A model generated the notes under the pieces. The model did no database searches. It was given only the letters and a program-made list of their open reading frames with translations, and was not told the DNA's origin. This document shows, piece after piece, positions 11,193 through 36,649 of a stretch of DNA of 64,000 nt; positions within the stretch are counted from its first letter, which is position 1; each line of letters opens with the position of its first letter. The DNA is taken from contig QCHB01000006.1 in the NCBI GenBank assembly GCA_003278095.1, positions 1-64,000 of the forward strand, given 5' to 3'. Made by a program: the position numbers and the translations under genes. Origin of the DNA: SAR116 cluster bacterium AG-390-L20. Its GTDB lineage: Bacteria; Pseudomonadota; Alphaproteobacteria; Puniceispirillales; Marisalimonadaceae.

Positions 11193-11612
11193 GTGTCTTA
11201 TCATTTAAAAAAAATAGCAGTCGGTATCGAAACAATTGAAAGACTTTATGCAAGACAAAAAATGATTAAAGAAACTTATGGCACAATATTACATACTACA
11301 AGAAACATGCCAAAAAAAAGAGAAGATTTAATTAAAACTGGTTCAATATTTTGGATTATCAAAAGAAAAGTTTTAGTTCGGCAGAAAATATTAGATATTT
11401 TATCGGTTATTCGAAGTGATGGTAGCAAAGGGTGTGAAATTGAATTAGACAAAAAACTAATAAGAGTAATTCCCACTCCTATGAAACCCTTTCAAGGCTG
11501 GAGATATTATTTAGAGGGAGATATTCCAAGAGACTTGAATTTAGATGAAGAGACAGGTGAAAACTTACCAGATAATATAAATGCCGAACTGATTAAATTA
11601 GGATTATATTGA
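11193..11612 (+). CDS. DUF1489 family protein
   Basis: 139 residues. The conserved family pattern is visible: GSIFWIIKRKVLVRQKILDI in the middle and PTPMKPFQGWRYYLEGDIPRDL near the end. This family is widespread in Alphaproteobacteria and its function is unknown. Start is GTG, 15 bases after mgtE. It supports the taxonomic assignment more than any functional one. Confidence 0.88.
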   Translation: MSYHLKKIAVGIETIERLYARQKMIKETYGTILHTTRNMPKKREDLIKTGSIFWIIKRKVLVRQKILDILSVIRSDGSKGCEIELDKKLIRVIPTPMKPFQGWRYYLEGDIPRDLNLDEETGENLPDNINAELIKLGLY

Positions 11613-11716
11613 TTAAGAAATTAACAAAAATAATAATTAAATTTTAAAAAATTTGTCTTTTGATCGAAATGCCAATAATAAATAATCGAAATTAAAGTAT
11701 TTCTAGGAAAGTTAAA

Positions 11717-12835
11717 ATGTTGCCCAAAATATTTAATCTTAAGACTTTTATGTTTTTTTTAGTTTTAGGAATAAGTATATTTAGTTATAAGTATTTAGTA
11801 TCTTCAAAACCACTTGCAAAGCCTTCAAAAGTTGAAGAAGAAACTTTTTATGTAAAAGTGGTTAAAACTAAAAGACATGATTATACTCCATCATCTGATG
11901 CATATGGAAAAATTGTTTCTTCAAGGTTTGGCGATCTTCGTTTTGGTGTTTCCGGTAGAGTTAATTTTATATCTAATTCTTTTTTGAATGGTGCTTATGT
12001 AAAAAATGGACAAATTTTAGCAAAACTAGATCAAACACGCTTCTTGCTTGAAATAAAAAAACTAATTTTTGAAACACAAGAACTAGCTTCACAATTAGAT
12101 ATTAGAAAAAGACAAATAAAAAGATATAAGTCTATGCTATCAACAAAAGTTATATCGCAGAACAAGTATGATAATGAGTTAATTCTCTTATCAAAAAACA
12201 AGTCAGATTTTAATAGATCCAAAATTATTTTAGAAAAAGCAAAGCAAGATTTGTCTGATACTATTTTAAAAGCAAAATATAATGGTAGGTTATATAATGT
12301 TAAAATTAATAAAGGACAATTTATTTCAAGTAATGAAAAATTAGCTAATATATTTTCTACAGAAGACTTAGAAGTTGAGTTTGTTATACCATCAAAAATA
12401 TATTCAAATTCAGATAATTTAATTGGAAAGTCTATTAATGTTATATGGGAGGGAGGAAATACCCCTCTAAAAAATATAAAAGCTAAAATTGAAAGAACAG
12501 ACGGAAAAACAAATGAAGAAGAAGGTGGAGGAAAATTGTTTGCAAAAATTAATATTGTAGAGAATAAAAGTAATTATATCCCTCTTGGTACTTTTGTTCG
12601 TGTGAATTATCCAGTAGGTAATTTTAAAAATATATTTAAATTGCCTGAAACTTCTCTATACGGTGAAAATATATATTTTGTAGATAACGGCATTGCAAAG
12701 AAAAAAAGGGTGAACCTAATATACAAAGGTTCAGGATTTATTTTAGTTGACGGAAATATTTCAGAGAGTGATTTGATTATAACAACAAGAATGCCCGATA
12801 ATTTTAATAATCAAAAAGTTACAATTTTAAATTAA
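11717..12835 (+). CDS. RND efflux periplasmic adaptor (membrane fusion protein)
   Basis: 372 residues. One N-terminal membrane anchor (about 10-27), a split lipoyl domain (GRVNFIS...GAYVKNGQILAKLDQ and TILKAKYNGRLYNVKINKGQ), a helical hairpin between the halves, then beta-barrel and membrane-proximal domains. It bridges the inner-membrane pump encoded immediately downstream and an outer-membrane channel that is not in this window. The divergent sequence and the basic, serine-rich composition give no clue to substrate. Confidence 0.88.
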   Translation: MLPKIFNLKTFMFFLVLGISIFSYKYLVSSKPLAKPSKVEEETFYVKVVKTKRHDYTPSSDAYGKIVSSRFGDLRFGVSGRVNFISNSFLNGAYVKNGQILAKLDQTRFLLEIKKLIFETQELASQLDIRKRQIKRYKSMLSTKVISQNKYDNELILLSKNKSDFNRSKIILEKAKQDLSDTILKAKYNGRLYNVKINKGQFISSNEKLANIFSTEDLEVEFVIPSKIYSNSDNLIGKSINVIWEGGNTPLKNIKAKIERTDGKTNEEEGGGKLFAKINIVENKSNYIPLGTFVRVNYPVGNFKNIFKLPETSLYGENIYFVDNGIAKKKRVNLIYKGSGFILVDGNISESDLIITTRMPDNFNNQKVTILN

Positions 12836-29968: not shown

Positions 29969-30733
29969 TTAAGCTGCTTCTTCAATTTGAGCTTGAATTT
30001 TTGGTGGTAAATTTGCAACTAGTTGATCTGTAATATTTCTTGGACTTTCACCTCTTGATATAAATTTCAACCCCATAACTACCATTTCTCTATATAAAAG
30101 TTCATGAGCAGAGTATCCTTCTAACTTAGTCACAATAGGCATGAAAATACAGTTGGCAATCATAGCACCATATAAAGTTGTTAATAATGCAACAGCCATA
30201 GCGGGTCCTATTGCTTTAGGGTCTGCCATGTTACCCAACATTGCAACTAATCCAATTAAGGTTCCAATCATTCCCATCGCAGGAGCTAGATCAACCCAAG
30301 CCTGAAAAACACCAGTACTATTTTCATGTCTAGTCTTCATGGCTTTAAGTTCTCTATTTAATTGATCAGTTAATTTTGTTTCATCTGCTCCATCAACAAG
30401 CATTTGTAGACCTTTTTCAAAAAATTTGTCAGGAACTTCTTGACCTTCCAATGCCATCATTCCATCTTTTCTAGCTATTCCTGCTAATTCAGTTAAACGT
30501 GTAATTAATTCATCATGTTTTTTTACGCCTGGCATAAAAACTTTAACTAGGGTTCCAAAAGATGATAAAAATGTTGGTAAAGTTGATCTATACATAACAG
30601 CAAAAAAAGTTCCCCCAAAAACAATTAACATAGATGGGGTATCAACAAACATTCCTAAACCACCAGATGAGATCATCGCCCCAGCTATCATACCTAGAGT
30701 TCCTATTAGACCAATTAGAGAAGCTATATCCAT
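29969..30733 (-). CDS. motA: Flagellar motor stator protein MotA/PomA
   Basis: 254 residues, the PomA size. Four spans; the pore region includes VFQAWVDLAPAMGMIGTLIGLVAM and MAVALLTTLYGAMIANCIFMP, with the conserved proline before MGMIGT. The cytoplasmic loop holds charged residues for rotor contact (around TELAGIARKDGMMALE). First gene of motA-motB-RRF-like. A sigma-54 promoter at 30780-30795 gives a leader of about 36 bases. The resemblance to PomA points to a sodium-driven motor; confirming the ion needs experiment. Confidence 0.94.
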   Translation of the reverse strand: MDIASLIGLIGTLGMIAGAMISSGGLGMFVDTPSMLIVFGGTFFAVMYRSTLPTFLSSFGTLVKVFMPGVKKHDELITRLTELAGIARKDGMMALEGQEVPDKFFEKGLQMLVDGADETKLTDQLNRELKAMKTRHENSTGVFQAWVDLAPAMGMIGTLIGLVAMLGNMADPKAIGPAMAVALLTTLYGAMIANCIFMPIVTKLEGYSAHELLYREMVVMGLKFISRGESPRNITDQLVANLPPKIQAQIEEAA

Positions 30734-30767: not shown

Positions 30768-30783
30768 AGGCACAAATTCTGCA
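30768..30783 (+). promoter_or_regulatory. Sigma-54 promoter for the DUF1566 gene
   Basis: AGGCACAAATTCTGCA: GG of the -24 box and GC of the -12 box are separated by exactly ten bases, with GGCAC and TGCA matching consensus. The predicted start near 30794 leaves about 40 bases to the ATG at 30834, which has GAGG upstream. It shares its TGCA with the opposing motA promoter. Confidence 0.65.
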
Positions 30784-30795
30784 AGAATGAGACCA
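30780..30795 (-). promoter_or_regulatory. Sigma-54 promoter for motA-motB-RRF-like
   Basis: On the minus strand TGGTCTCATTCTTGCA: TGG at -24, TTGCA at -12, correct ten-base gap between GG and GC. The predicted transcription start is near 30769. No competing sigma-70 promoter is obvious. Sigma-54 control of flagellar genes is established in Caulobacter and others. Confidence 0.7.
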
Positions 30796-30833: not shown

Positions 30834-31328
30834 ATGTTACTCATTAAAATATCATTCTACAAGGTCAGTTCATTATTTATAATATTCTTATTAAGTTTAA
30901 ATATCAACACTGTATGGGCTAATAATTTTATTTCAAGAGGATATTATGTTATCGACCTAAGTCAAAAGTTAGAATGGTTGACTTGTCCAGTTGGAATGGT
31001 ATGGGAAAATAAAACATGTGTTGGTAACCCTGTAAAACTCAAATTTAGTGAAATTGAAACAGCTATATTTCAAGCTAACGAACAACTCAACGGTAAGTGG
31101 AGATTGCCTAATAGAGAAGAACTAGAAAAAATAATTTGTAAAAAGTGTAAAAAAGTTAAAATAAATAAAGAAATATTTCCAAATACACCACCAGAGTCTT
31201 TTTGGACTAGTGAAAAAAATCCATGGCAACCAAAATTTATATGGACTGTAAATTTTTATACTGGCCATACTTTTGGAAGATTTCCTGGTTTTATTCCTAA
31301 CTATGTTAGGCTAGTTCGTGATCGGTAA
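30834..31328 (+). CDS. Secreted DUF1566-type protein
   Basis: 164 residues with an N-terminal signal peptide (hydrophobic 9-26, likely cut after VWA). The mature part has LEWLTCPVGMVWENKTCVG, then WRLPNREELEKIICKKCKK and ESFWTSEKNPW, and ends YVRLVRDR, the Trp-Arg-Leu-Pro and Phe-Trp-Ser/Thr pattern of DUF1566 (Lcl C-terminal domain). Four cysteines could form disulfides in the periplasm. Its promoter overlaps that of motA, which links it to motility. No function is known to me. Confidence 0.75.
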   Translation: MLLIKISFYKVSSLFIIFLLSLNINTVWANNFISRGYYVIDLSQKLEWLTCPVGMVWENKTCVGNPVKLKFSEIETAIFQANEQLNGKWRLPNREELEKIICKKCKKVKINKEIFPNTPPESFWTSEKNPWQPKFIWTVNFYTGHTFGRFPGFIPNYVRLVRDR

Positions 31329-31587: not shown

Positions 31588-31847
31588 TTAATATAAAAAA
31601 TACGTGCCAATTAATTGACATTTTATAAAATCATAACAAAATTAAATTAAAAAAAAAATAAATTTTAAAATAATAAACCATAAAGCAATACTAATCCATT
31701 GTTTCTACTTTATTTTTAAATAATTGAAAAATCATTTTTAGTCATTTTTTTGTCATATTTTTTTGTCAAATTATGATTTTGCTTTTGCCTAATATTCCTG
31801 CTTTCTTTTCTTCACTGACAAAAAAAAAAATAAAAGTGGAGGTTAAA

Positions 31848-33338
31848 ATGAAGTTAGCACAACAGCTAAAAATTAAACAAAACCAGTCATTAATTATGAC
31901 GCCCCAATTACAACAAGCTATTAAATTATTACAATTAACTAATATTGAACTGACTGAATTTATTGAAAAAGCACAAATGGAAAATCCGTTCTTACAAGAA
32001 AAAAAAGAATTATCACAGAATAAACTTCTAGATAATGAAAACATAAACCCAAATGTTTGCGAAAATTTAAATGATACTTCTAATTTATTGCAAAAGGAAA
32101 ATAAAATTGATTTAGAAAATACTTTTGACTCTCATCTATCTTCAAATGCAAATGATGAAAATAAAAAATTATATGATAAGGAAATTCTTAATTCAGGTAA
32201 TATTATATCTGCGGGTGAAGTAATAGAAAAAACATTAAAAAACAAAATTTCTTTAAAAGAATATTTGGTAAATCAAATTAATATTGAGTTTAAAAATAAA
32301 GATTTTAAAGAAATTGCAATTGGAATGATTGACTATTTACATCCTAGTGGGTGGTTCACATCGAAAATAAATGAGGTAGCAGAAGATTTAAATGTAAAGA
32401 GTGATATAATATCGAATACACTTCAAAAATTAAAAACACTAGAACCAGTTGGAATATTTTCTGAAAATTTATCTGAGTGTTTAAAATATCAATTAATTGA
32501 TAATAAGTGTTATAATAAAAAATACGAAATTCTTTTAAAAAATCTGCAACTTTTACCTATTGGAAAATTTAAACAGATTAGTAGGCTGTGTAACGTTTCC
32601 GAAAAAGAACTTTTTAGAATGATTAAAATTATCAAAACTTTAAACCCAAAACCTGCTGAAAAATATCATGAAGATAATATGGTTATAGATCAACCAGATA
32701 TTATTGTATCAAAATCTGAAAAGGGTTGGCGTATTGATTTAAACAAATCAAATTTGCCATCTGTAGAAATTGATGAGGATTATATTACCGAAATTAGTAA
32801 TTATAATTTTGATGAGAAAGGCACTAACTTTGCTAATGAAAAAATAGGAGAAGCACGTTGGTTAAAAAAAGCTGTAGAACAAAGAAATAAAACAATCGTA
32901 AAAGTTACTGCAGAGATTGTTAAAAAACAAGTTGGTTTTTTTAGGCATGGTCTTAATCATATGAAACCTATGATACTTAAAGATATATCAGACGCTATAG
33001 AAATGCATGAAAGTACAGTTTCAAGAGTAACTAATAGTAAATTAATTTTGACTGAATGGGGAGTAATGCCGTTAAAAAACTTTTTTTCTGCTTCTATTGC
33101 CAGTTCAGAAGATTCAGAAACGCATGCCGCTTCAGCAGTAAGAGAGACAATTAAAATGTTAATTTCGTCTGAAATAGCATCTAAACCCTTGAGCGATGAT
33201 AAATTAGCTGGAATGTTAAATAAGGAAGGGATGGATGTTGCAAGAAGGACTGTAGCTAAGTATAGAGATATGCTCAATATACCATCTAGTTCTCAAAGAA
33301 GAAGAGAGGCAAGACTACAAAGTCTTGCTGCTGGTTAA
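31848..33338 (+). CDS. rpoN: RNA polymerase sigma-54 factor
   Basis: 496 residues. The N-terminal activator-interacting region has QNQSLIMTPQLQQAIKLLQLTN, followed by an acidic variable region, the core-binding domain, the HTH (ISDAIEMHESTVSRVTNSK) and the invariant RpoN box ARRTVAKYRDMLNIPSSSQRR that binds the -24 element. ATG at 31848 is chosen because GGAGG precedes it by five bases; longer in-frame starts would add residues unlike the family. Downstream, raiA and ptsN, common rpoN neighbours, are absent. Five matching promoters in this window suggest it serves motility and envelope genes. Confidence 0.96.
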   Translation: MKLAQQLKIKQNQSLIMTPQLQQAIKLLQLTNIELTEFIEKAQMENPFLQEKKELSQNKLLDNENINPNVCENLNDTSNLLQKENKIDLENTFDSHLSSNANDENKKLYDKEILNSGNIISAGEVIEKTLKNKISLKEYLVNQINIEFKNKDFKEIAIGMIDYLHPSGWFTSKINEVAEDLNVKSDIISNTLQKLKTLEPVGIFSENLSECLKYQLIDNKCYNKKYEILLKNLQLLPIGKFKQISRLCNVSEKELFRMIKIIKTLNPKPAEKYHEDNMVIDQPDIIVSKSEKGWRIDLNKSNLPSVEIDEDYITEISNYNFDEKGTNFANEKIGEARWLKKAVEQRNKTIVKVTAEIVKKQVGFFRHGLNHMKPMILKDISDAIEMHESTVSRVTNSKLILTEWGVMPLKNFFSASIASSEDSETHAASAVRETIKMLISSEIASKPLSDDKLAGMLNKEGMDVARRTVAKYRDMLNIPSSSQRRREARLQSLAAG

Positions 33339-33348
33339 ACTAGTAATA

Positions 33349-33543
33349 TTAATATTCAAGATTTGAATTATTTTCAGGGAGATTTACGTTATTATTTAAT
33401 ATATATCTTAAAGGAACGCTGTTTTCAAAATTCTTTTTACCTTTTTGATCGAAATAATCAATTTTTATGAAATATTCATTAAAATTATTTAATATTAGTT
33501 GTTGAGTGTCAATCCTTGACTTAGTAGTATGTTCTAAAAACAT
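33349..33543 (-). CDS. Small protein under a sigma-54 promoter, unknown
   Basis: 64 residues, soluble, no signal or span, rich in Asn, Tyr and Phe, with an N-terminal helix (TTKSRIDTQQLILNNFNEYF). No family recognised. Strong support for being a gene: AAGGAG seven bases before the ATG and a canonical sigma-54 promoter placing the start about 20 bases before the gene. It is convergent with rpoN, ending 10 bases from it. A role in sigma-54 feedback or flagellar assembly is possible but unsupported. Confidence 0.7.
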   Translation of the reverse strand: MFLEHTTKSRIDTQQLILNNFNEYFIKIDYFDQKGKKNFENSVPLRYILNNNVNLPENNSNLEY

Positions 33544-33574: not shown

Positions 33575-33590
33575 TGCATTAGTTGTGCCA
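33575..33590 (-). promoter_or_regulatory. Sigma-54 promoter for the 64-residue gene
   Basis: Minus strand TGGCACAACTAATGCA: the full TGGCAC -24 box and TGCA -12 box at the exact spacing, the best match of the five in this window. Predicted start near 33564, then AAGGAG and the ATG at 33543. A TATAAT-like sequence overlaps the start and could allow some sigma-70 use. Confidence 0.75.
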
Positions 33591-33604: not shown

Positions 33605-35002
33605 TTAATTTTTAATTACATAACCCTTTAAACTTGTTCTGCTTAGGAGGCTTCTTCCTATTTTTATATAAGTAGCAGGGTTTTGAGACTTTCCATTAAC
33701 TGAAATTTCATAATGAAGGTGAGCTCCTTTAACTTTACCAGTTCTACCCATTTTACCTATAACCTGACCTTCATTTACTATATCTCCCCTTCTAACGCTT
33801 ATCTTGGCTAAATGTCCATATGTTGTCATTATGCCATAATTATGTTTGATACGGACTACTTTTCCAAAAGATCCATGATAACCAGCAAAAACAACTATTC
33901 CATCTGCTGAAACAGAAATATTTTCTTGCCAGGTACCAGCCAAATCAATGCCATGATGCATTCTATATTTGCCCGTAACAGGATGTTTTCTTGGTCCGTA
34001 CGGACTAGAAACGTAGTAATGTTCCATAGGAGGTTTAAGAGGTATATCTTGAAGAGCATCTTTATATATTGCAAGAAGGTTAAGGCGAGTTTTTAAGCTT
34101 CTAAAAAAATTATCACTATCAGGATCTATTGATTTATTATCTTTAATAATTGAGGCAACACTGACTAAATCTTCGTTTTTTAGCTCAACCTTTATTAACT
34201 TAAATACATTTTCCATTTGAATAAGTTCATTATCAACAGAAGCAATAAAACGTAAACTTTTTACCTTATCATTAAGTTTAGGTGGTTTAGGATATTGTTT
34301 TTTTTCATATAAATCAGATTTGTAACTATCAGAGATTGAGATATTGCTCTCATTTGATAATTGATTTATCGCCTTGTATGGGATATCTTGATTTCGTGAA
34401 GTTTTGTTAAATAAATCTAAAACTTCGTTATTATTAGCAATAATGGTGGTCGGTTTGAAAATAACATTATTTTTCAATTCCTGATCAAGGTTATTTGTTG
34501 ATTCTTTAAATTCTAATTTATTTCCTAAGTTATTTTCTTGAACAAAAGTTTTTTGGTTGATATTTTCACTTTTCATAACTTTATAATCGTCAATAATGCT
34601 AAAATCCACCTTTGTTTTTTTTAGAATTGGAAGTGTTATATTTGATTGATCTTCAACATTAAAATTCACGTTAGTGTCTGAGTCATTTTCTATTGATTCA
34701 TTGATGTTTGCTGAAGCTTCAGTAATTATATCATTTTTTTTTGCTACATCTATAGCAGAGTAAATACCTTTTGCAGACCAATAAATTATGCTAGTCATAC
34801 CAATAATGGTAGTTATTAATACACTAGTATAGTGTACTGGTTTAAAAGCAATTTCAATTGGTCCTTTTTTAGTAAAAATTAAAAAACGTCTTTCAGAAAA
34901 CAGCCCTACTTTTTTATCTTTTTTTACCTCTTCTCCGAAACGTTGACCAGTCTTAACAGGAGGAAGTTTTTTACCAAATTTATTAAATGTGGCATTGACC
35001 AC
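33605..35002 (-). CDS. Membrane-anchored M23 (LytM) peptidoglycan peptidase
   Basis: 465 residues. One N-terminal span (about 58-77), a long Asn/Ser/Asp-rich periplasmic linker, a short helical region, and a C-terminal LytM domain. Zinc ligands are intact: MHHGIDLAG supplies His and Asp, and GAHLHYEISVNG supplies the HxH site. TYGHLAK and VRRGDIVNEGQVIGKMGRTG are typical. It should cleave peptide crosslinks in the cell wall. Three bases after a coiled-coil membrane protein gene and divergent from three bactofilins; bactofilin-M23 pairing is known in Helicobacter and stalked Alphaproteobacteria. Confidence 0.9.
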   Translation of the reverse strand: MVNATFNKFGKKLPPVKTGQRFGEEVKKDKKVGLFSERRFLIFTKKGPIEIAFKPVHYTSVLITTIIGMTSIIYWSAKGIYSAIDVAKKNDIITEASANINESIENDSDTNVNFNVEDQSNITLPILKKTKVDFSIIDDYKVMKSENINQKTFVQENNLGNKLEFKESTNNLDQELKNNVIFKPTTIIANNNEVLDLFNKTSRNQDIPYKAINQLSNESNISISDSYKSDLYEKKQYPKPPKLNDKVKSLRFIASVDNELIQMENVFKLIKVELKNEDLVSVASIIKDNKSIDPDSDNFFRSLKTRLNLLAIYKDALQDIPLKPPMEHYYVSSPYGPRKHPVTGKYRMHHGIDLAGTWQENISVSADGIVVFAGYHGSFGKVVRIKHNYGIMTTYGHLAKISVRRGDIVNEGQVIGKMGRTGKVKGAHLHYEISVNGKSQNPATYIKIGRSLLSRTSLKGYVIKN

Positions 35003-35005
35003 TAA

Positions 35006-35380
35006 CTACTCCATACCTAAGTACAAAAAATACAAAATCCCAATATTTGACAAAATTTGTAATGAAACCATAAAAATTAATACCTTACTAGAAACAGGAT
35101 TTTTTACTGATAAGCTAACTGCAGGAAAAGTTTCACTTTTAAGGTTTGGATTATTAATTTTTGTTTCATTATTGTTAAGATGATTGGATTCGTTTTGTAT
35201 ATTACGATTTTGATTCGCATAATCTTTTTTATTTTCCATAGATAAAGAAATATTTGAGTTACTAGTTTGTTGATGAATTTCTAAGTGTGCATCTTTAGAA
35301 ATTTGTTCTACAGCCTCATTTTCTATCTGTATGCGCATTTGTTCTATGCGATCTCTTAAATCTATAATTTGTTCTGCCAT
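35006..35380 (-). CDS. Small coiled-coil protein with C-terminal membrane anchor
   Basis: 124 residues. Helical N-terminus IDLRDRIEQMRIQIENEA, a polar Asn-rich middle and one C-terminal span (about 99-121). Tail-anchored layout identical to the gene at 23216-23761, with nearly the same opening motif. It heads the operon with the M23 peptidase and has a sigma-54 promoter. It may be an adaptor recruiting the peptidase or bactofilins; that is inference. Confidence 0.75.
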   Translation of the reverse strand: MAEQIIDLRDRIEQMRIQIENEAVEQISKDAHLEIHQQTSNSNISLSMENKKDYANQNRNIQNESNHLNNNETKINNPNLKSETFPAVSLSVKNPVSSKVLIFMVSLQILSNIGILYFLYLGME

Positions 35381-35419
35381 TATATGTTACTCTGAATTTT
35401 TTAATTAAATTATTTATTA

Positions 35420-35435
35420 TGGCAAGTTAATTGCA
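35420..35435 (+). promoter_or_regulatory. Sigma-54 promoter toward the bactofilin operon
   Basis: TGGCAAGTTAATTGCA: TGGCA and TTGCA with the exact GG-N10-GC geometry. Predicted start near 35446, leaving an unusually long leader of about 115 bases before the first bactofilin, in which I see no further signal. It shares TGCA with the opposing promoter. Confidence 0.7.
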
Positions 35436-35447
35436 TCATTCATACCA
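35432..35447 (-). promoter_or_regulatory. Sigma-54 promoter for the coiled-coil/M23 operon
   Basis: Minus strand TGGTATGAATGATGCA: TGG and TGCA at the correct distance, the middle less conserved. Predicted start near 35421, about 40 bases before the ATG at 35380. Same arrangement as at 30768-30795. Confidence 0.6.
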
Positions 35448-35561
35448 AATAAATACTTTTTAAATAAATTTTTTGTTTTAAGTTTATTTGTAGTAATATA
35501 ATTTTAATAATAGTAAATTAAGAGACTAATTTTTAAACCAATTAGCAAGAGGATTTCCATA

Positions 35562-35906
35562 ATGCTAGGAAAAATAAACGACACTGAAACTGAGAAATCA
35601 GTTATTTCAAAAGATATGAAAATAAAAGGTAAGATTTCTGCTGATGGTGGTTTAGTCTTATTAGGATCAGTCGTAGGAGATATAAAGTGTCACAGTTTAT
35701 CTGTTGAAGATACTGGTTCATTAAAAGGTAATATAGATGCTGATGTAGTTACCATTTCAGGAAAATGTGATGGGCAAGTATCAGGAGATGTTATTTCAAT
35801 AAAATCTACTGGTAAAATTTCTGGTGAAGTTTTTTATGAAAATATTTCCATTGAAGAAGGAGCTGTAGTTGAAGCTCAAATTGGTAAAAGAAAAAGTAAA
35901 AACTAG
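35562..35906 (+). CDS. Bactofilin (first of three)
   Basis: 114 residues. Right-handed beta-helix with repeating short strands separated by glycine turns: KIKGKISADGGLVLLGSVVGDI, GSLKGNIDADVVTISGKCDGQV, GKISGEVFYENISIEEGAVVEA. The conserved MKIKGKI entry and the basic tail KRKSKN are present. Bactofilins polymerise without nucleotide into filaments that position cell-wall enzymes. AGAGGAT precedes the ATG. Eleven bases separate it from the second copy. Confidence 0.9.
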   Translation: MLGKINDTETEKSVISKDMKIKGKISADGGLVLLGSVVGDIKCHSLSVEDTGSLKGNIDADVVTISGKCDGQVSGDVISIKSTGKISGEVFYENISIEEGAVVEAQIGKRKSKN

Positions 35907-35917
35907 GGAGATTATTT

Positions 35918-36301
35918 ATGGCTAACAAACAAGCAATATTAGGATCAGGAGCCCGCTTTAGTGGAAAAATATCTAATGCCAGATCAATAGAAATAAATGG
36001 ATACGTTGAAGCTGACTTGACAACTGAAAAGGTTACAATTGGATCATCTGGTAAGTTTCTTGGTTCTGTAGATTCTGAGCTAGTCGTTATTGCTGGTGAA
36101 TACGAGGGTAAAATGCAAGCTGATAGTGTTTGGCTTACAGAAACATCACGTATAAGTGGTGAAGTACATTATAAATCTTTACAAATGGATAGAGGAGCAG
36201 CTTTAAATTGTAGGGTAGTCCATAATTGGAACGAAGCTGAAACAAATAATGTAGATGAAAAAGAAGAGAATGAGGAAGATGCTCAGGAAGAGCAATCTTA
36301 G
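35918..36301 (+). CDS. Bactofilin (second of three)
   Basis: 127 residues. Starts with AILGSGARFSGKISNARSIEINGYVEA, the bactofilin beta-helix pattern, then GKFLGSVDSELVVIAGEYEGKM and SRISGEVHYKSLQMDRGAALNC. It differs from its neighbour in a strongly acidic C-terminal tail (Glu/Asp/Asn, last 20 residues) in place of a basic one. The complementary tail charges suggest co-assembly, which is inference. GGGAG lies upstream. Confidence 0.9.
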   Translation: MANKQAILGSGARFSGKISNARSIEINGYVEADLTTEKVTIGSSGKFLGSVDSELVVIAGEYEGKMQADSVWLTETSRISGEVHYKSLQMDRGAALNCRVVHNWNEAETNNVDEKEENEEDAQEEQS

Positions 36302-36334: not shown

Positions 36335-36649
36335 ATGAGTGAAGTTACATACATATCAGAAGAATTAGTTATGGAAGGTAACCTTGATTCTGCGGGATCG
36401 TCTGTTGTTGTCGCTGGAAGATTTAAGGGAGAATTAAGGGCTAAAGATGTTCTATTAGAGGCTAATAGTATATTTGACGGTAATCTAGTTGCTGATAAAG
36501 TTACTTTGGGTGGTCTAGTAAAAGGTGAGGTGGCAGCTAATGTTTTGAATGTGGCTAGTAGCGCTAAAATTGAAGGTAATTTGAAAACTAATGCTCTTTC
36601 CATAGATCTTGGTGCAGAAGTATCTGGAAGCATAACTAGGATATCTTAA
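36335..36649 (+). CDS. Bactofilin (third of three)
   Basis: 104 residues, the shortest copy, with almost no tails: VTYISEELVMEGNLDSAGSS, GRFKGELRAKDVLLEANSIF, GLVKGEVAANVLNVASSAKIEGNLKT, GAEVSGSIT. Thirty-three bases after the second bactofilin, with TAAGGA upstream. Three different tandem copies indicate a mixed or switchable filament rather than simple redundancy. Confidence 0.88.
   Translation: MSEVTYISEELVMEGNLDSAGSSVVVAGRFKGELRAKDVLLEANSIFDGNLVADKVTLGGLVKGEVAANVLNVASSAKIEGNLKTNALSIDLGAEVSGSITRIS

Follow-up and report, generated by a model that had tools for sequence, protein, structure and literature searches.

The window analysed here is a 64,000-nucleotide stretch of the genome of the probably marine SAR116 cluster bacterium AG-390-L20 (Alphaproteobacteria, Puniceispirillales, Marisalimonadaceae; assembly GCA_003278095.1, contig QCHB01000006.1, positions 1 to 64,000 of the forward strand). 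It contains two divergent cell-shape operons, one with three bactofilin genes and the other with a gene for a small coil protein followed by an M23 peptidase gene (Table 1). The peptidase is LmdC-like in its layout as judged by eye, with a hydrophobic segment, a linker and a C-terminal M23 domain. On its far side lie the gene for sigma-54 itself, an Lcl_C-domain gene and a stator gene of the motA/pomA type. Between the M23 gene and rpoN there is also a sigma-54-type site, TGGCACAACTAATGCA (33575-33590, minus strand), upstream of a 64-aa ORF that starts at 33543 on the same strand and has an AGGAG ribosome-site-like stretch by eye; sites like it follow the M23 gene in loci L145 and L147, and in L140 such a site stands some 2 kb beyond that point.

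A 28-bp near-symmetric element, TGGCAAGTTAATTGCATCATTCATACCA, lies in the 181-bp intergenic region between the two cell-shape operons. As the preliminary description of this DNA had observed, two sigma-54-type cores stand back to back in it, TGGCAAGTTAATTGCA pointing toward the bactofilins and TGGTATGAATGATGCA toward the coil/M23 operon, with one TGCA in common, and the same 28-bp geometry recurs at the motA site, which starts with AGG where the element at 35420 starts with TGG. The formula proposed there, GG-N10-TGCA-N10-CC, is one base too long, and the true spacing is GG-N9-TGCA-N9-CC. The sigma-54 (-24/-12) consensus is near TGGCAYG-N4-TTGCW, with the GG and GC 10 bases apart, and this GG-N10-GC spacing is present in each of the two opposed cores at both sites. 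TGCA reads the same on both strands, and a single -12 box could therefore work with a -24 box on either side of it. The minus core is the weaker one, with TGGTA and an A at position 12; the halves at 35420-35447 score 22.5 and 20.5 by weights of our own, set from this consensus. By the same weights this element has the best weaker half among the 21 genomic palindromes, with the motA site and one genic match sharing second place. Transcription starts were predicted by position arithmetic, 12 bases past the GC. The resulting bactofilin leader of about 116 nt is longer than those predicted at flagellar sites, and given this length another promoter could serve the bactofilins. A crude scan of 35350-35600 gave two sigma-70-like sites, both on the minus strand and none directed toward the bactofilins, against 2.3 expected in shuffles, and visual inspection of the sequence flanking the element revealed no conserved block for activator binding.

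Table 1. Features of the window around the bactofilin/coil and motA junctions
Feature	Position	Strand	Basis or remark
motA/pomA-type stator gene	29969..30733	-	Pfam PF01618 over cut-off; best NCBIfam model PomA, below its cut-off
Second element of same design, between motA (-) and Lcl_C-domain gene (+)	30768..30795	.	same 28-bp geometry
Lcl_C-domain gene	30834..31328	+	Pfam PF07603, E 3e-21
rpoN (sigma-54), between the two elements	31773..33338	+	Pfam AID, CBD, DBD; TIGR02395 above cut-off
M23 peptidase	33605..35002	-	Pfam PF01551, E 6e-29, residues 347-442
Small coil protein, hydrophobic C-terminus by eye	35006..35380	-	no Pfam match at E 0.001
Putative bidirectional sigma-54-type promoter element, GG-N9-TGCA-N9-CC	35420..35447	.	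sequence and same-genus conservation
Plus core, -24/-12 type, toward bactofilins	35420..35435	+	predicted +1 near 35446
TGCA, palindromic, -12 box common to both cores	35432..35435	.	invariant in 28/28 same-genus loci
Minus core, -24/-12 type, toward coil/M23 operon	35432..35447 (read 35447-35432)	-	predicted +1 near 35421
Bactofilin 1	35562..35906	+	Pfam PF04519, E 5e-21
Bactofilin 2	35918..36301	+	Pfam PF04519
Bactofilin 3	36335..36649	+	Pfam PF04519

Bactofilin 1 was searched in the window's genome and 60 relatives. Among the 37 genomes of the same genus, the window's included, 28 have a close match, all of which were used, and the other nine, mostly incomplete, have none. The full pattern is kept at all 28 of these loci; 25 of its 28 columns are invariant and each of the remaining three varies in a single genome. 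At motA, 28 same-genus matches gave 27 loci (G027 was lost at a contig edge), and the palindrome is kept at every one of them. Fourfold-degenerate sites of the adjacent bactofilin gene have a mean identity of 0.534, calculated from 26 of the 28 genes as the start pattern missed two. A single sigma-54-type promoter before the flbD-like gene of the same genus served as a one-way control (21 loci, two of 23 being left out for a missing promoter region); "flbD-like" is a loose name here, as the NifA and FlbD models score alike and both fall below cut-off. Identity over the 16-base core is 0.996 at the bactofilin site, 0.944 at the motA site and 0.994 at the control, and mean pairwise identity over the 12 bp past the TGCA is 0.988, 0.971 and 0.700, respectively. 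Since these 12 bases are far more conserved than at the one-way control, selection seems to act separately on the second half of each overlapping element. Across the two sites eight columns vary, none of them in GG or TGCA: spacer positions 9 and 11 account for three, C/T exchanges at position 6 for two, and positions 7 and 12 for the other three. The conserved stretch exceeds two minimal cores by a few bases, and in view of this an additional factor might bind the element.

The N10 pattern, as originally proposed, occurs at seven places in the genome, all inside ORFs and none of them either of the two sites described here. The N9 pattern has 21 exact matches, both sites included, against one for the reversed-pattern control; with ORFs called by a simple longest-ORF rule, 19 of the 21 lie inside ORFs and the two between divergent genes are the bactofilin/coil and motA sites. 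The GG is in codon phase 0 in 19 of 19 genic matches, which points to coding periodicity as their probable source, as Gly..Ala..Pro-type codon strings would give, and motif counting was for this reason dropped as proof. Per-base density is similar in intergenic (2 in ~150 kb) and genic DNA (19 in ~2.08 Mb), so the motif count is by itself weak evidence. In the window alone, seven matches with at most one mismatch were found against 0.96 expected, five of them inside ORFs. A first-order background model built from 14.8 kb of intergenic DNA of the same genome predicts 0.136 motifs in all its intergenic DNA, and two were observed (P ~0.008). The preliminary description had argued that a design found twice is unlikely to be chance, and that an equal frequency inside genes would speak against it. 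As to the first argument, the raw count is weak and it is conservation that decides; taken literally, the count of 19 against 2 would refute the design under the second, yet matches in a single codon phase are irrelevant to two conserved sites. At the level of sequence it is conservation, not motif number, that is strong evidence for a real element.

The genome has eight matches over cut-off to PF00158 (sigma-54 activator), four of them strong. Two of the four strong ones are encoded divergently on contig C17 (L136:9940-11097, minus strand, and 11272-12468, plus strand) beside genes read by eye as fliE to fliK; a receiver domain was matched in neither, and a Fis-type HTH in one only. Strong sigma-54-type sites (score at least 22.5 by our own weights) are intergenic in 11 of 17 cases and inside ORFs in six, in stretches that were chosen for holding such sites. 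The distance to the start codon is 32, 40, 34 and 94 bases for the strong intergenic sites before the flbD-like gene, flgB, flgG and flhA, respectively. We note that flhA and a divergent 174-aa ORF of this genome have separate opposed sites between them (L180:2773-2788, minus, and 2859-2874, plus; C14:20772 and 20858), which lend themselves to comparison with the merged ones. The suggestion that the element represents a promoter type used across the lineage to co-regulate shape and motility parts survives in part: two strongly conserved sigma-54-type cores with a common TGCA are supported, in a genome where similar sites precede flagellar genes, but a general type is not, since only two intergenic cases were found in the genome and the divergent pair beside flhA has separate sites. 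The near-invariance of the element among relatives suggests that the genes for cell shape and for swimming are under linked control.

Of eight loci that represent three further families of the order, seven retain at least the outline of the gene order bactofilins, coil, M23, rpoN, Lcl_C-domain gene, motA; L142 has no bactofilin or M23 match, and in L146 bactofilin 1 was not separately recognised. In seven of the eight, as in the window, the bactofilin and M23 genes belong to adjoining divergent units, separated by a single small gene. A one-way sigma-54-type site directed toward motA is present in 8/8 of these loci, and six of the eight have a separate, weaker site directed toward the Lcl_C-domain gene. 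The same separate opposed pair is found at motA in L111 and L112 of another family, and the motA palindrome is missing from all three loci of that family (L110-L112); separate opposed sites, 22-72 bp apart, thus lie in the motA region of 8/10 loci of other families. At the bactofilin/coil junction a coil-directed sigma-54-type site is present in three of seven cases, all from one genus (L144-L146), and in 0/7 is there a site that combines GG and GC in the direction of the bactofilins. In the sample examined the merged design is confined to the window's genus; from this, and from the lack of a bactofilin-directed site at the junctions in other families, sigma-54 control of the bactofilins looks recent in that genus.

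From the sequence, geometry, conservation and gene context of the element we infer that it is, with good probability, a bidirectional sigma-54 promoter belonging to the flagellar regulon, occupied by a single holoenzyme at any moment for transcription of the bactofilins or else of the coil/M23 operon. The element is real and strongly conserved, and is likely to function in both directions. Sigma-54 holoenzyme would bind the same 28 bp in either of two orientations: with the left GG and the common TGCA it would give a bactofilin transcript from near 35446, and with the right GG and the same TGCA a coil/M23 transcript from near 35421. The predicted starts are 25 bp apart and each falls inside the GG box of the opposite core, which argues that only a single polymerase could occupy the element at a time. 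Opening of the bound complex, in either orientation, would fall to a sigma-54 activator, for which the two encoded next to the flagellar genes on C17 are the probable candidates, and the bactofilin-M23 cell-wall module would thereby come under the flagellar regulon. A more far-reaching version, which we hold to be evenly balanced between right and wrong, is that the design acts as a sigma-54 switch in which the orientation of a holoenzyme, opened only by its activator, sets the share of bactofilin versus M23 hydrolase and of the motA operon versus its partner gene, and that this lineage evolved it twice, once on each side of rpoN, the motA case through the merger of two formerly separate promoters. 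If so, the motA locus would give a traceable history from separate to merged promoters.

It is also conceivable, if rather unlikely, that the promoter works one way, one half being active and the other kept for a different purpose, such as docking sigma-54 at a second place so as to repress or poise the first. The unequal half scores (22.5 and 20.5) and the three loci of one other genus with a site only on the coil/M23 side fit such an arrangement, but the halves are about equally conserved, variation spares GG and TGCA in both, the genes on either side are at usable distances, and at most motA loci of other families (8/10) each direction has a site of its own. An operator for another dimeric regulator, with an accidental resemblance to sigma-54 promoters, would account for the near-symmetry and for conservation slightly beyond two minimal cores; against it stand the GG-N10-GC spacing in both halves, the invariance of GG and TGCA, the motA-directed one-way site in every order-level locus, and the fact that by eye the two elements have little in common beyond the sigma-54 bases, so that we think it quite improbable. 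A functionless chance match, for which one could cite the 19 further bare-pattern matches inside ORFs and a raw intergenic density barely above the genic one, is scarcely credible, as it is already contradicted by conservation at 28/28 and 27/27 loci against a mean fourfold-site identity of 53%. A bidirectional sigma-54 promoter remains our preferred reading.

A scan of 84,980 species genomes with TGGCA-N6-TTGCAW-N4-CRTRCCA returned 116 stretches, of which 80 were examined as loci and 36 are outside the counts. Fifty-two of the 80 lie inside ORFs, and 17 carry this lineage's element, as recognised by the element and the sizes of the flanking ORFs and not by protein comparison; 15 of the 17 are identical to the window's 28 bp and 12 are in records titled SAR116. 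The other 63 loci include six between divergent, two between co-directional and one between convergent ORFs, and two at contig edges. A stricter pattern, TGGCAY-N6-TGCA-N6-RTGCCA, which the window's own two sites do not match either, was found in 0/397 genomes of the phylum, a result that led us to reject a widespread design. The overlapping design looks rare. In Thioalkalivibrio sulfidiphilus (L237:6102-6129), overlapping opposed sigma-54-type cores with a common TGCA lie between flgA and a cheV-like gene, and by its sequence this site is a good candidate for an independent case. The same geometry also occurs upstream of a flagellin gene at a contig edge of a Rickettsiales MAG (L248:133-160), between a gene encoding an ATPase domain of the histidine-kinase type and a prepilin-like gene in Methylobacillus (L221:4086-4113), and between genes for a TPR glycosyltransferase and a repeat protein in Limnohabitans (L277:3488-3515).

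Among the titles and abstract openings of the open-licence PMC literature we found none on overlapping sigma-54 promoters with a common -12 box and none on bactofilins under sigma-54, which is not proof of absence, and the word bactofilin does not occur in the accessible part of PMC3162934. According to the accessible portions of other reports, 20 RpoN sites have been counted at divergent promoter regions (PMC10794520), the hrpL/hrpJ region has a sigma-54 site (PMC5263251), and a bactofilin is a binding partner of VemR (PMC9218911). The zraSR/zraP (PMC4987338) and Avin_02430/02450 (PMC9542535) pairs likewise have two sigma-54 promoters for divergent genes and one activator, but the passages describing them, which we compared by description and not by DNA, mention no overlap or common -12 box. 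The Rhodobacter FleQ/FleT system, as outlined in PMC7277832, resembles the present genome in having two sigma-54 activators, one of them encoded there with fliEFGHIJ; the likeness drawn here concerns gene context.

The cell-shape genes resemble the BacA-LmdC module (eLife 2024, PMC10945521), where, in the sections of that paper at hand, a bactofilin gene also adjoins a gene for an M23 peptidase whose peptidase domain follows a transmembrane segment, and the cytoplasmic beta-hairpin of LmdC binds BacA. That module is a putative operon, whereas here the genes form divergent units with a small coil gene before the M23 gene and a sigma-54-type element in common. The same sections raise expression in response to external cues as speculation only; if our reading is true, the present locus would provide a direct genomic link from flagellar sigma-54 control to the bactofilin-M23 shape module, and so shape-module control of the kind on which those authors only speculated.

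Bidirectional promoters have only lately become a subject of study, and the published account (Warman et al., NAR 2026, PMC12825309), in the parts accessible, is built on the symmetry of the sigma-70 -10 box, which is the element common to both directions. Paired starts are there most often separated by 18, 10 or 23 bp, polymerases facing opposite ways are mutually exclusive, and the two directions are reported to compete if one of them is activated. Neither sigma54 nor RpoN occurs as a term in the main text of that paper. The element described here is like those promoters, as far as that portion of the account goes, in having a near-symmetric core element for two divergent (here predicted) starts, and differs from them in that the common element is the sigma-54 -12 box TGCA, the predicted starts are 25 bp apart and an ATP-driven activator would be needed. 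If the sigma-54 case is true, the closed complex would be silent until the activator opens it, and orientation and opening could be studied separately.
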